Shown here: positions 25,810-33,427 of the stretch, piece after piece
Layout: each line of letters begins with the position of its first letter
Position numbering within the stretch: position 1 is the first letter of the stretch
NCBI RefSeq assembly: GCF_013407145.1
Contig: NZ_CP026993.1
Location: 186,001-250,000 of the forward strand
DNA from: Nitrosopumilus cobalaminigenes
Lineage (GTDB): Archaea > Thermoproteota > Nitrososphaeria > Nitrososphaerales > Nitrosopumilaceae
Reading direction: 5' to 3'
Length of the DNA: 64,000 nt
Translations under genes and position numbers: made by a program
The notes under the pieces: generated by a model
The model's database searches: none
The model's input: only the letters and a program-made list of their open reading frames with translations
What the model was told of the DNA's origin: nothing

Positions 25810-27432
25810 TTAGATTTTGATATATTTTTTAGTCTTGAAAATTATTATTGCTGGAGCTGCTACATACATTCCTAGATTCATCAAAACAACTCCAATTCCA
25901 TATCCTAACACTTCAGATTCTGATTCTGCATATGACATTAGAGACAATGTTGATAGTAATGGTGTAATTCCAATTTTTACTATCTCTTTGAATATTGGAC
26001 TCTCTCTTTCCATATCTGCAATATGTGGTGAGAATGAATAGTACAATGAATTGAATCCTGTCATAAATGAGATGCCTGATTCTGTATTCATCAATTGATT
26101 ATCTCTAATTTCTCTTAACAATTGAACCTGTGGTGCCATCTCTGAGCCATATGTTGCAGTAGCAATAAGACAACCTCCACCTTCAGAATTATCAACAATC
26201 ACACACATTCCATCAACAAGATCGGTTCCTTCACCACATTCTCCAAATTCTTGTTCTATGGTTTCTGGTTCTTCCAATCCAACTGCTTCGTAAATTGTAA
26301 TGTCAGGATATGTTTCATCAAACCAATCTTTGTATGTGGTTTCCTTGTTGTATCTATCAATATAGTATTGCGGATCTAGATTTGGATCAACAAATGGTGC
26401 TAATACTTTTGGCTCTTCTAATCCAACTGCTTGGTAAATAGAATCATACTCTGCAAAATTATCGTCAAACCATTTCTTGTAGCTTGCCTCATTGTTGTAT
26501 CTGTCAACATAACTTTGTGGATCTTTAGTTTCATCCACAAATGATGCTGGAATAAGTAATGGTTCTTCCAATCCAACTGCTTGGTAAATAGAATCATACT
26601 CTGCAAAATTATCGTCAAACCATTTCTTGTAGCTTGCCTCATTGTTGTATCTGTCAACATAACTTTGTGGATCTTTAGTTTCATCCACAAATGATGCTAG
26701 TCCTAATTCTTTAGGCTGTGGTTCTGGTTCTGGCTCTGGCTCAGGTTCTGGAGTTGTTTGAACAGGTGGTGTTGTAGTAACCGGTTTATCAATAACTGTA
26801 ACTGTGATAGTTTCTCTATCTTCAAGTGGACCTGCATTAACAACAATATCAAAAATATATCCTCCTGCTTGAGTGTCAGTTGGAGTCCAAGAAAATACTC
26901 CAGTATCTTTATTGATAGTTGCACCACTTGGATGTTTGTCTAATGAATATTCTTCATCTATAATTTGAGAATCTGTAATACTTGCAGTAAAAGATAATTT
27001 TTCATTTTCATCTACTTGTTTATTTCCAATTTCTTTTAGAATTAATTCAAAGTCTGGTAATGTTGATGCAATTCCATTATTATATTCAATTTTAATTACA
27101 GTGCCGTTTACAGGTTGTTGATATTCCGTAAAGACTGTAATAATATAGGTTCCTTCACCTCCATTAAACAAATCGTCTGCATTAACTGGAGTAAAAGTAA
27201 ATTCCCCACCAGTTGAAAATGCGTTTCTAAATAATGTATCACCATTTGGTTTTTTCATTGGGGCTGCTATCATTACACCTCCTTCATCATCCACAGTTCC
27301 TGAAATTGTAAATTTATCATCAATTGAAAATGATTCTTTGTCAATAGTTACAGAGGTTACATCTGCATAGACTGGAATTATCATTAAAAGAATTAGTGAA
27401 AATACTGAAAATAGTCCTAGATTTGTTCTCAT
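25810..27432 (-). CDS. Secreted multimodular surface protein with CFI-box-type C-terminus
   Basis: About 540 residues from ATG at 27432; longer starts exist but lack a signal-like beginning. After the signal peptide (ending 'IIPVYAD') come a beta-rich domain (about 20-125) and a cadherin-like Ig domain (about 125-220, 'GVFSWTPTDTQAGGYIFDIVV'). A Pro-Glu linker, two near-identical 50-residue 'YVDRYNNEASYKKWF' repeats and a third diverged one ('YIDRYNKETTYKDWF') follow. A Cys module 'GECGEGTDLVDGMCVIV' precedes the 'SEGGGCLIATATYGS' C-terminal domain with two hydrophobic segments. It lies 95 bases upstream of the related NHL/fibronectin gene. Probably a surface-anchored protein. Confidence 0.78.
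   Translation of the reverse strand: MRTNLGLFSVFSLILLMIIPVYADVTSVTIDKESFSIDDKFTISGTVDDEGGVMIAAPMKKPNGDTLFRNAFSTGGEFTFTPVNADDLFNGGEGTYIITVFTEYQQPVNGTVIKIEYNNGIASTLPDFELILKEIGNKQVDENEKLSFTASITDSQIIDEEYSLDKHPSGATINKDTGVFSWTPTDTQAGGYIFDIVVNAGPLEDRETITVTVIDKPVTTTPPVQTTPEPEPEPEPEPQPKELGLASFVDETKDPQSYVDRYNNEASYKKWFDDNFAEYDSIYQAVGLEEPLLIPASFVDETKDPQSYVDRYNNEASYKKWFDDNFAEYDSIYQAVGLEEPKVLAPFVDPNLDPQYYIDRYNKETTYKDWFDETYPDITIYEAVGLEEPETIEQEFGECGEGTDLVDGMCVIVDNSEGGGCLIATATYGSEMAPQVQLLREIRDNQLMNTESGISFMTGFNSLYYSFSPHIADMERESPIFKEIVKIGITPLLSTLSLMSYAESESEVLGYGIGVVLMNLGMYVAAPAIIIFKTKKYIKI
25852..26195. repeat. 344-bp perfect duplication, copy 2
   Basis: Identical to 6732-7075 in the same orientation. It encodes the C-terminal domain of the surface protein here. 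Outside the block the two genes are unrelated, except that both are secreted. Confidence 0.95.
26267..26698. repeat. Three 50-residue repeat modules, two near-identical and one diverged
   Basis: Units start at 26411 and 26561 (period 150, nearly identical to each other) and a diverged unit spans 26267-26401. Both units here read 'CTTTGTGGATC' where both units of the neighbouring gene read 'CTTTGCGGATC'. Copies are therefore more alike within a gene than between genes. Confidence 0.9.
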
Positions 27433-27511
27433 AATAGTAATTTTGTGGTCAAGTCTTTTAAAAAACACGTATAATTTGTTCTAGGGAATTGCAAAGAATT
27501 ATTCACACAAT

Positions 27512-30728: not shown

Positions 30729-31508
30729 CTAATGTTTTTTGTTTTTTTCTTCCCAAATTAATTCTCTCATTCCAAATTTCATTCTTAAAGAGTTTGCAGT
30801 TGCTGGACCAAACCCTTCAAAGTGATTATTTGCCATTACCATTGCTAATGGAATATCATTAATTTCTTGGAGTTTTTTTGCCCAATTTGAAATAAGATTC
30901 TCTTTATTTTTGGAAACTTTACCAAATTCTGAATCTGGAATTGAACGATCTCCAATTAATCTCACATAGATGTAATCTGAAGTTATTGGCATGGGGTTGT
31001 TTACTCCTGCAACATCATTCCAAACTAGACAGTGCTTATTTTGTTTAAGGTATATTATAGCTTCTTCAGAAAACCATGATTCATGTCTTCCTTCAATAGG
31101 GTACAAGAAATTATCTGGAAGTAAATCAAAAAGTTCACCTAGTCTAGGTTTTGCTTCTTCAAAGGATAATGATGGAGGAAGTTGAAGTATTAGTGCCGAA
31201 ATTTTCTCATGAATCGGAGTTAAAGATGATAAAAATGAAAAAACCTCTGAATTTACCCTATCTAGTTTTTTTTCGTGAGTAATAATTGAAGGAAATTTTG
31301 CAGTAAATCTGAAATGTCTAGGCGTGTCAGTATTCCATCGTTTGACAATCTCTTGTGCAGGAATTCTGTAAAATGTTGAATTGATTTCTGTAATCTCAAA
31401 TATTTGAGAATAATATTTTAGCCATTCTGAATTCTTTAGATTTTTGGGATAAAATGCTCCAGACCATCCTTGATAGCTCCAACCAGTACAGCCGACTTTA
31501 ATATTCAT
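30729..31508 (-). CDS. DUF72 family protein
   Basis: About 259 residues from ATG at 31508; the frame extends 25 codons further but without conservation. The family features are 'KVGCTGWSYQGWSGAFYP', 'YSQIFEITEINSTFYRIP', 'RHFRFTAKFP' and 'LLPDNFLYPIEGRHESWF' with 'CLVWNDV'. It forms a TIM-barrel-like fold of unknown activity. It converges with dedA. Confidence 0.85.
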   Translation of the reverse strand: MNIKVGCTGWSYQGWSGAFYPKNLKNSEWLKYYSQIFEITEINSTFYRIPAQEIVKRWNTDTPRHFRFTAKFPSIITHEKKLDRVNSEVFSFLSSLTPIHEKISALILQLPPSLSFEEAKPRLGELFDLLPDNFLYPIEGRHESWFSEEAIIYLKQNKHCLVWNDVAGVNNPMPITSDYIYVRLIGDRSIPDSEFGKVSKNKENLISNWAKKLQEINDIPLAMVMANNHFEGFGPATANSLRMKFGMRELIWEEKNKKH

Positions 31509-31697
31509 GGTATATGCTTCATTGTTTTTGCTTTTACAATTAAGGTTAATGATTATAGAAATATTGGAACTTAAGACCAACAACGGTTAGTTGTTTGGTG
31601 AGAGCTCCAACTGAATATGATAATGTGAATTTTGTATTTAGAGAATACTGATAACTTCTACGTGCTGGTTATATGCAAAGTTTATTCTGATCTTTTA

Positions 31698-32366
31698 ATG
31701 AGAAAACTATCGATTTTGATGATGTTCTTATTTGCAGTATCTACAATACCCGTTTATGCTCAAAATGTTCATTTTGATGAAGATGAAGAAAAAATTAGAG
31801 CAGAAATTCTTGAATGTGAGGATAAAATTATGGCAAATGACTCTTTGACTGATGCATCAAAGACTGTTGAAAAAAGAGAATGCTCATCTGAAATTAGGAA
31901 AAAATATGCAGAAACTGCGTTAACTTTTGAGCTTCAAGATGAGATGAAAATTAGATTACAAAATCTTCAAAAATGTGAAGATTGGCATTCCCAATACCAA
32001 TTCTTAGATGAAGTAAACTTTAAGATTCAAAAAAATGTTCAGATGGTGGAAAGTTGTATCTCTTTGTATAATGATCCTTTGTGGACTTATGCAGGAGAAG
32101 ATAGAATTGAAATATTATCTGATAAACTAGAAACAATTCTTGTAGAAGTTCCAATTAAGACCAATCCTTCAGATGACTTTTTAAAAAATTCTCAATATGA
32201 GGTAGATAGAATTTATTCTTTGGAGAAAAAAATTGCAGAATTGGAAGATGAATTACACAACAAAAATCTAATTATTCGTGAACAAATGAATGTAATATCA
32301 AATCTTGCAAATACATTAAGAAATGCAATATTTGATGGATTTCAATCAGTATATCCATTTGTTTAG
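31698..32366 (+). CDS. Secreted helical protein with LYNDPLWTYAG module
   Basis: About 222 residues from ATG at 31698, giving a clear signal peptide ('LSILMMFLFAVSTIPVYAQ'). It is helical and acidic, with four Cys in the first half (for example 'ILECEDKIM', 'KRECSSEI', 'QKCEDWHSQY', 'VESCISLY'). The module 'LYNDPLWTYAGEDRIEIL' resembles 'LYNDDLWMYSGSDRYQKL' of the protein at 6687-7520. A coiled coil (about 175-205) follows. I do not recognise a family or function. Confidence 0.68.
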   Translation: MRKLSILMMFLFAVSTIPVYAQNVHFDEDEEKIRAEILECEDKIMANDSLTDASKTVEKRECSSEIRKKYAETALTFELQDEMKIRLQNLQKCEDWHSQYQFLDEVNFKIQKNVQMVESCISLYNDPLWTYAGEDRIEILSDKLETILVEVPIKTNPSDDFLKNSQYEVDRIYSLEKKIAELEDELHNKNLIIREQMNVISNLANTLRNAIFDGFQSVYPFV

Positions 32367-32752
32367 AATTTCAACGAAATAGGAAACGAGGTATAATGGA
32401 AGACCTTCTGAATTCTGGATACTTGTACCCTTTTCATGTCTTCCTTTTTCCTATCTGCTCACTTCCTCAAAGTTTACTCTCTGAATTTCAGCAAGTATGA
32501 CAGTCCTCGTCAATCATAGTTAGATAAAATAAAATTTAAAGAGTTCTAGATAAATTCTTAAAATTTATTTGAAAATTAGACAAATTATATACAAATTTAC
32601 AAGATCCTGTTGATCTGCTTTATTATTCATTATGACCAATAATTGTTGAAGACAGAACTTTGAATATCCAGACGCAATATCCTATTGTCGTTTTGCATGT
32701 CAATGCATACTGCTTGGCTTGTAAAGGATAACCCGCAGAAAACTTCTGTCTT
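32367..32752. other. 386-base gap with inverted repeats, no clear protein gene
   Basis: No convincing reading frame lies here. Two structures are visible. The first is a hairpin with outer arms 32379-32386 and 32447-32454 (ATAGGAAA/TTTCCTAT) and inner arms 32398-32404 and 32438-32444 (GGAAGAC/GTCTTCC). The second is an inverted repeat, GAAGACAGAA (32648-32657) with TTCTGTCTTC (32744-32753), enclosing the mini-hairpin TGCAT-GTCA-ATGCA. A TATA-like TTATATAC lies near 32585. It may encode a structured RNA, but no known RNA family was recognised. Confidence 0.4.
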
Positions 32753-33427
32753 CTATTTTGTTAGTTTTTTTGCTTTTGCAAATACTGCAGACCATTGAGT
32801 CCAGCTAAGTCTACCTGTCTGTGTATTTTGCTTTGATGGATGGTATGATGTTAGAATTTTGAATCCATCATATGTGAAGAGTTTGTTGTGACCAAATTTT
32901 TCTGGTTTCACTCCATACAATTTACATGCTGCATCATAACCAATTTTACCAAGACACAGAATTACTGTAACATTTTTTAAAATTTCTTTTTCTTGCTGCA
33001 AAAAATTAAAACATGTATTCATTTCTTCACGAGTTGGTTTGTTTTGAGGTGGCGCACATCTTACTGCAGCTGTAATGTATGCATTGTGTAAAATTAATCC
33101 ATCATCAATGGTTTGACTAGTTGGAATAGATGCAAATCCCTGTTTATGCATCACTTTGGCTAGCCAATCTCCTGAGGAATCCCCTGTAAACATCCTGCCG
33201 GTTCTAGTTCCTCCGTGGGCTGCTGGAGCCAATCCGACAATTAGCAATTGTGCATTAATATCCCCAAATCCTGATAATGGCCTTCCATAATATTTCTGAT
33301 CTTTGAATCGTCTAACTTTATTTTTTGCAACCTCTTTAATGTATACTGATAATCTAGGACATTTTTTACAACCAGCAATTTTTTTGTTTAAAGATACAAT
33401 TGATTTTAAACTAGATTTATTTGTCAT
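32753..33427 (-). CDS. Uracil-DNA glycosylase, family 5 (UDGb) type
   Basis: A 224-residue Fe-S glycosylase removing uracil and other deaminated bases from DNA. Motif A, 'GLAPAAHGGTRTGRMFTGD', has Ala where family 4 has a polar residue, as in family 5. Motif B is 'SYHPSKQNTQTGRL'. Likely 4Fe-4S ligands are Cys20, Cys23, Cys124 and Cys139. It ends at the base of an inverted repeat in the gap downstream and is preceded by a PH-like gene 3 bases away. Confidence 0.9.
   Translation of the reverse strand: MTNKSSLKSIVSLNKKIAGCKKCPRLSVYIKEVAKNKVRRFKDQKYYGRPLSGFGDINAQLLIVGLAPAAHGGTRTGRMFTGDSSGDWLAKVMHKQGFASIPTSQTIDDGLILHNAYITAAVRCAPPQNKPTREEMNTCFNFLQQEKEILKNVTVILCLGKIGYDAACKLYGVKPEKFGHNKLFTYDGFKILTSYHPSKQNTQTGRLSWTQWSAVFAKAKKLTK

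Follow-up and report, generated by a model that had tools for sequence, protein, structure and literature searches.

Two candidate structured noncoding RNA genes arranged head to head at nearly fixed spacing in Nitrosopumilus cobalaminigenes

Archaeal intergenic small RNAs are, in general, short RNAs encoded between genes, with a TATA promoter of their own and a T-rich end. As for the guide RNAs of known type, box C/D sRNAs are defined by C and D boxes which form a terminal K-turn, and box H/ACA RNAs by a pocketed hairpin with an ACA box on its 3' side. Other structured archaeal RNAs are RNase P RNA (RF00373) and archaeal SRP RNA (RF01857). We analysed a stretch of 64,000 nucleotides (hereafter "the window"), which is part of one chromosome of 1,563,356 bases. 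It contains a gap of 386 bases (32367-32752) with two elements, E1 and E2, which resemble archaeal intergenic small RNAs in being short and intergenic and in having their own TATA promoter and T-rich end, but which differ from them in their closed and covarying three-way junctions, in their occurrence as a head-to-head pair and in the nearly fixed spacing of this pair. The head-to-head arrangement at nearly fixed spacing is unusual. From conserved sequence and pairing we conclude, with a probability of about 0.92, that the gap is the locus of two structured noncoding RNA genes diverging from one shared promoter region. A first-pass annotation had proposed a candidate noncoding RNA at this place; the proposal is supported, except that there would actually be two RNA genes, one per strand, and that each of them has a conserved promoter to itself.

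The gap separates a gene of 244 amino acids without any Pfam family (31632-32366, plus strand, stop codon at 32364-32366), tail-to-tail with E1, from a gene of the UDG superfamily (PF03167; 32753-33427, minus strand, stop codon at 32753-32755), tail-to-tail with E2. Since both flanking genes end at the gap, a transcript running outwards from it cannot be the 5' leader of either of them, and in the window no sense gene lies downstream of E1 or of E2 on either side. The closest named records of the UDG protein, at 89% identity or less, come from Nitrosopumilus and from related thaumarchaeal MAGs. By DNA search, at least part of the gap is matched in 42 of the 95 genomes of the genus, and the best nine relatives align with most of it or with the whole of it at 77-83% identity.

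E1, approximately 130 nt long, is placed on the minus strand (32383-32512) by covariation, by a covariance model and by the fold of the single sequence. It consists of a closing helix P1, of an arm P2a-P2b-P3 and of an arm P4-P5-P6. The 5' strand of P1 (32505-32510) is paired with its 3' strand (32386-32391), the termini pairing as ACGAGG/CCTCGT; 186 of the 192 cells of this helix are paired among 32 sequences, and double changes are found at 5 of its 6 pairs in distant copies. In helix P4, GGAAGAC (32398-32404) is the partner of GTCTTCC (32438-32444), and pairing on the minus strand holds in 211 of 222 cells. Taken as a single sequence, the minus strand folds with a z of -3.83, which none of 200 shuffles could equal, and into the same helices as those of the comparative structure, whereas the plus strand reaches a z of -1.09. 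In a set of 19 sequences (A4), the paired share of the 691 cells is 96.7%, falling to 40-47% with slid partners, and changes on both sides affect 32 cells, where shuffles give 12.2; the further pair types, 29 in number, are below those of the shuffles (32.1). Among 25 more distant copies, taken from Nitrosopumilus and from other genera, 94.1% of the cells pair and 66 double changes are counted, against 16.9 when shuffled. The G-U pairs indicate the strand: departures from the commonest pair are kept in 74 of 97 cases on the minus strand and in 47 of 97 on the plus strand. The length of E1 varies from 120 to 155 across the genomes of the aligned subset, and the copies of a second genus lack the arm P2b-P3, their core being made up of P1, of P2a and of the arm P4-P5-P6, whose end loop is GGAAGC. 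The covariance model R2 has a single match in the window, E1 (142.9 bits).

The first-pass annotation had described in this region a two-part hairpin (ATAGG...GGAAGAC in 32379-32404 and GTCTTCC...CCTAT in 32438-32454), and its coordinates, as well as those of a 10-base inverted repeat (32648-32657 with 32744-32753) and of TATATA at 32586-32591, are all correct. Its view that these structures exceed chance holds for the 10-base repeat, which is the conserved P1 of E2, and for the inner half of the hairpin, which is P4 of E1. It does not hold for the outer half, ATAGG/CCTAT: among 32 sequences, the full set of five pairs survives in 5 when the plus strand is read and in 2 when the minus strand is read, these bases belonging elsewhere in E1, namely to the 3' tail and to helix P2. 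On the plus strand, on which the hairpin had been read, the region folds no better than shuffles (z of 0.18 and -1.09).

E2, approximately 110 nt long, is placed on the plus strand (32647-32756) by the same three kinds of evidence, covariation, covariance model and fold; it consists of a helix P1, of a hairpin P2 and of a long imperfect arm P3. P1 pairs GAAGACAGAA (32648-32657) with TTCTGTCTTC (32744-32753), and the last base of the second arm, 32753, touches the stop codon of the UDG gene, as had been remarked. In 51 copies, 98.5% of the cells of P1 are paired and double changes are present at 9 of the 9 modelled pairs. For E2 as a whole, 95.4% of the cells pair in 19 close relatives (19 of 32 loci were used), with 11 double changes against 2.5 when shuffled, and 92.7% in the 51 copies, with 213 double changes against 59.5; the covariation score of the 51 copies is 0.508, against 0.188 shuffled and 0.05-0.08 slid. 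Departures are kept in 56 of 81 cases on the plus strand, against 32 of 81 on the minus strand. The plus strand folds with a z of -5.02, and the minus strand also folds well (z of -3.07) because P1 pairs on both strands. Hairpin P2 is poorly kept in place (69.8% of cells paired in the broad set, 45.7% in the distant set), and in the distant set the sequence beside P1 can, by inspection, form an alternative small hairpin; hence the P2 part of the model needs to be redrawn for each subfamily. As the window contains one match of R2 and one significant match of the covariance model R3, namely E2 (93.6 bits), the models are specific. Both E1 and E2 fold into a closed three-way junction whose helices show compensatory changes, above shuffles in the related genomes where the first-pass annotation had suggested looking for covariation, and both have a conserved and covarying structure on one strand, as is expected of free-standing structured noncoding RNAs. 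A lack of conserved pairing among homologues, which would have counted against the proposal of that annotation, is not what is observed.

These counts depend on how the alignments were made. A3 and A4 are sequence alignments, and the structures were drawn while viewing them; A5, A6 and A7 were made by model search and are biased towards their own structure. The shuffled controls ignore relatedness, which the slid control does not, and the E-values of the covariance models are rough. A4 was obtained by cutting set A2 from 31 to 19 sequences in order to avoid misaligned closing stems (L031, L008, L009, L036, L037, L038, L040, L041, L043, L045, L013 and L014 were left out), and L044, which contains N, had been left out of A2. 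One doubtful row of A5 (L009:328-434; 19.3 bits, E 0.31) was kept in the 51-copy counts of E2 and dropped from the survey of promoters and T-rich ends.

Between the two RNAs lies an AT-rich divergent promoter region of 134 bp (32513-32646), in which the TATA box of each RNA is found approximately 25 bp upstream of the first helix. The TATA box of E2, CTTTATTATT (32618-32627, plus strand), has T at -28, -27 and -26 in 99, 91 and 96% of 74 copies, over which TTTATTATT or a similar sequence occupies -28 to -20; a conserved box ACAAATTTACA lies upstream of E2 (32591-32601, plus strand) in the consensus of 15 spacers of equal length. The TATA box of E1, CTTTAAATTT (32532-32541, minus strand), occupies -28 to -19 over 56 copies and is conserved in the 134-bp spacers, and a further conserved box is found upstream of it (32555-32569, minus strand; -57 to -43 over the 56 copies, and spacer consensus). 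These are the conserved boxes, and not the TATA-like site near 32585 which had been pointed out earlier. At the other extremities, a T-rich stretch follows E1 (CTATTTCGTT; 32373-32382, minus strand; T in up to 93% of the 56 copies at single positions), and another follows E2 in the 3' end of the UDG gene, in antisense (32754-32771, plus strand; T in 54-78% of the 74 copies in the first six positions); both may be termination zones. Conserved sequence thus points to a promoter and an end belonging to each RNA. It can be expected that this promoter region, with its two TATA boxes, drives E1 leftward and E2 rightward, and that each RNA would start approximately 25 nt past its TATA box, fold into a three-way junction which P1 closes from end to end, and terminate in its T-rich stretch.

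We surveyed the pairs formed by E1 and E2 after merging the places found by models R1, R2 and R3 at E ≤0.001 in the searches of the genus and of the order, near-identical coordinates being entered once and weaker E2 places (E up to 10) being left out. Among the 36 pairs less than 700 bp apart, which come from two genera, 34 are divergent and 2 are in tandem. The divergent pairs of Nitrosopumilus are separated by exactly 134 bp in 16 of 21 cases and by 133-136 bp in 20 of 21, the last one being at 128 bp. Of the 19 spacers in the aligned subset, 15 measure 134 bp, and the pairwise identity of these 15 goes from 57% to 93%. Because the length holds while the identity drops to 57% and while E1 itself varies between 120 and 155, the spacing is, as judged from these alignments, under constraint. 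This raises the question of how the distance is measured, whether by a regulator, through archaeal chromatin or through basal transcription factor geometry. In the second genus, the other 13 divergent pairs (12 genomes) are 415-536 bp apart, with a third element, E3, between them. From 700 to 6000 bp, all 11 pairs are on the same strand with E2 downstream of E1, and in genome G118, E1 is accompanied by a separate E2 approximately 2.4 kb downstream.

Model R2 finds E1 in 43 of the 95 Nitrosopumilus genomes and, at the level of the order, in 61 of 400 genomes and 4 of 66 genera. For E2, the narrow model R1 gives 29 of the 95 genomes, and the broad model R3 gives 80 of the 400 and again 4 of the 66 genera. 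This means that neither RNA is universal in the genus, and in the sample of 400 genomes and 66 genera no match was found in genera outside the family of the window. E2 is dispersed, the highest number for any one genome being 11 places at E ≤10, of which six reach E ≤0.001 (R1); the genome of the window has one E2 place and no further copy at E up to 10. We noted 11 places (E ≤10) in genome G092 (L128, L135, L143, L146, L148, L150, L152, L154 and others) and 8 (E ≤10) in genome G090 (L130, L138, L144, L147, L149, L151, L153 and L155), in varied intergenic contexts, many of them with a near-identical promoter around GATCTAGTTTATTATTGAATTTAGCATA. The neighbours differ from one dispersed copy to another, and such a variety of intergenic contexts suits a free-standing gene.

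The search of Rfam 15 which had been proposed for the gap yielded no family at the gathering threshold (best sub-threshold E of 0.038), nor did the 19 related loci yield any match at E up to 0.5. The sub-threshold match is to the box C/D sRNA sR55 (RF01307; minus strand, 32474-32514; 18.9 bits, E 0.038, threshold 35). E1 is like sR55 in this weak local match on its own strand; it differs in that it stays below threshold, in that the match is not repeated in relatives and in its long closing helix. The marine RNA IMES-5 (RF02995) overlaps E1 weakly on the minus strand at chance level (13.5 bits, threshold 96.1, E 5.2). RNase P RNA and SRP RNA were rejected as identities, as the genome contains a single match to each of them, at another place (193 and 106 bits, respectively). 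Membership in box C/D was rejected, sR55 being sub-threshold and the termini pairing instead as the P1 helices described above; by eye, no K-turn could be fitted in E1 or E2. Membership in box H/ACA was also rejected, as both RNAs end with P1 and then a T-rich stretch where inspection reveals no ACA box, and as Rfam gives no match.

In the literature searched, which comprised few subscription papers, no description of E1 or E2 was found, including in the accessible parts of PMC5069720 and PMC13248708; the accessible main text of PMC2864571 does not mention crenarch-, thaumarch- or Cenarchaeum, and no regulatory RNA named for marine ammonia-oxidizing archaea was found in the literature searched. 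E1 and E2 appear to be previously uncatalogued and, having no Rfam family at threshold and no description in that literature, would constitute new families of structured noncoding RNA. Marine ammonia-oxidizing archaea are described as belonging to the ocean's most abundant cells, and their RNA biology can be put to the test in culture by means of two well-defined RNA families, for which strand, ends, promoters and covariance models are available.

E1 and E2 could be cis-acting, riboswitch-like leader elements instead of free-standing RNAs. Some copies of E2 do lie close upstream of a DUF72 gene in sense (L006:2003-2108, plus strand; L136; L137, at 32 bases), and a cis role is possible there. 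In the window, on the contrary, neither RNA is the 5' leader of a downstream gene: each converges with a flanking gene and runs into its 3' end. The neighbours of E2 also vary among dispersed copies and the T-rich ends come after P1, which makes the leader explanation improbable. A somewhat less probable alternative again is that E1 and E2 belong to one of the known guide RNA types, box C/D or box H/ACA, and that their boxes have diverged. The weak sR55 match would fit, and so would a pair of motifs in E1, CUGA...UGAGGA, which we take to resemble C/D boxes; but 19 related loci have no Rfam match at E up to 0.5, the arm bearing these motifs is missing from the second-genus copies of E1 and both RNAs have long closing helices.

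The dispersal of E2 to as many as 11 places in one genome would also be expected of elements acting as DNA, such as palindromic protein sites or miniature mobile elements. We regard this as very improbable, as G-U is kept in pairing departures on one strand only and every copy has a TATA box at a fixed distance; neither viral contigs (two exact patterns) nor phage records (one blastn search) gave any match, and a viral or phage origin was rejected on this basis. Finally, short open stretches do exist (15-37 codons in E1, 19-42 in E2), as small protein-coding genes would require, but the longest one varies without pattern among 19 genomes. The length of E1 varies as well, and the pairing of E1 and E2 exceeds the shuffled and the slid controls, so that the probability left to small protein-coding genes, or to a chance structure in AT-rich DNA, is almost nil.

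Under the preferred reading of two free-standing RNA genes, E1 and E2 may have a function in trans, either as small RNAs with a regulatory role or by providing a scaffold to RNA-binding proteins, and the one promoter region would couple their outputs. The lack of a sense gene downstream suggests such an action, and we would give this proposal an even chance. Direct pairing between E1 and E2 was tried and rejected, the gain by cofolding being nil (-0.16 kcal/mol for cognate pairs versus -0.20), with a raw duplex score slightly better for cognate pairs (-44.79 versus -42.38). A bolder and rather unlikely idea is that E1, E2 and E3 form an RNA system at the level of the family Nitrosopumilaceae, within an unknown RNP or regulatory circuit, in which the RNA genes would be co-located, E2 and E3 being dispersed as well, and in which the 134-bp promoter would be one switch setting the E1:E2 ratio in Nitrosopumilus.

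E3 is a third structured RNA, made of GCGUGACCC/GGGUUACGC and UGCAGAAC/GUUCUGCA stems around two hairpins (L167:885-1030, plus strand; also L163:1774-1901). All 13 loci of the second genus have it between E1 and E2, it folds with a z of -6.26 (-6.33 for the other strand) and it has no match in Rfam at E up to 1. A search of 150 genomes gave E3 matches in 83 of them, and frequently two in the same genome; those of the genome studied here are outside the window, at C1:21553-21669 (plus strand) and C1:853554-853653 (minus strand). In another genus, a likely box C/D RNA lies beside E2 (L186:1233-1288, minus strand), with a match to sR41 of 35.7 bits (E 3.6e-05, threshold 54).

The genes next to E1 and E2 were surveyed for 53 hand-picked copies out of all those found. 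A DUF6659 gene is a neighbour at L035, L011, L012, L039, L040, L042, L045, L138 and L153, and a stand-alone gene for an Lrp/AsnC ligand-binding domain (AsnC_trans_reg) at L041, L014, L131, L132, L151 and L156. Within 600 bp, the raw counts for these hand-chosen copies are 10 of 53 for DUF6659 and 6 of 53 for AsnC_trans_reg. Both kinds of neighbour are often found at E1 copies which have no divergent E2, and also next to some of the E2 copies; seven DUF6659 cases seem to represent a single locus that is shared. The window has at 30729-31583 a relative of the DUF72 gene mentioned above, with no E2 copy there, and, at 25810-27468 on the minus strand, it encodes a predicted protein of 552 amino acids with near-identical internal repeats (ASFVDETKDPQSYVDRYNNEASYKKWFDDNFAEYDSIYQAVGLEEP).
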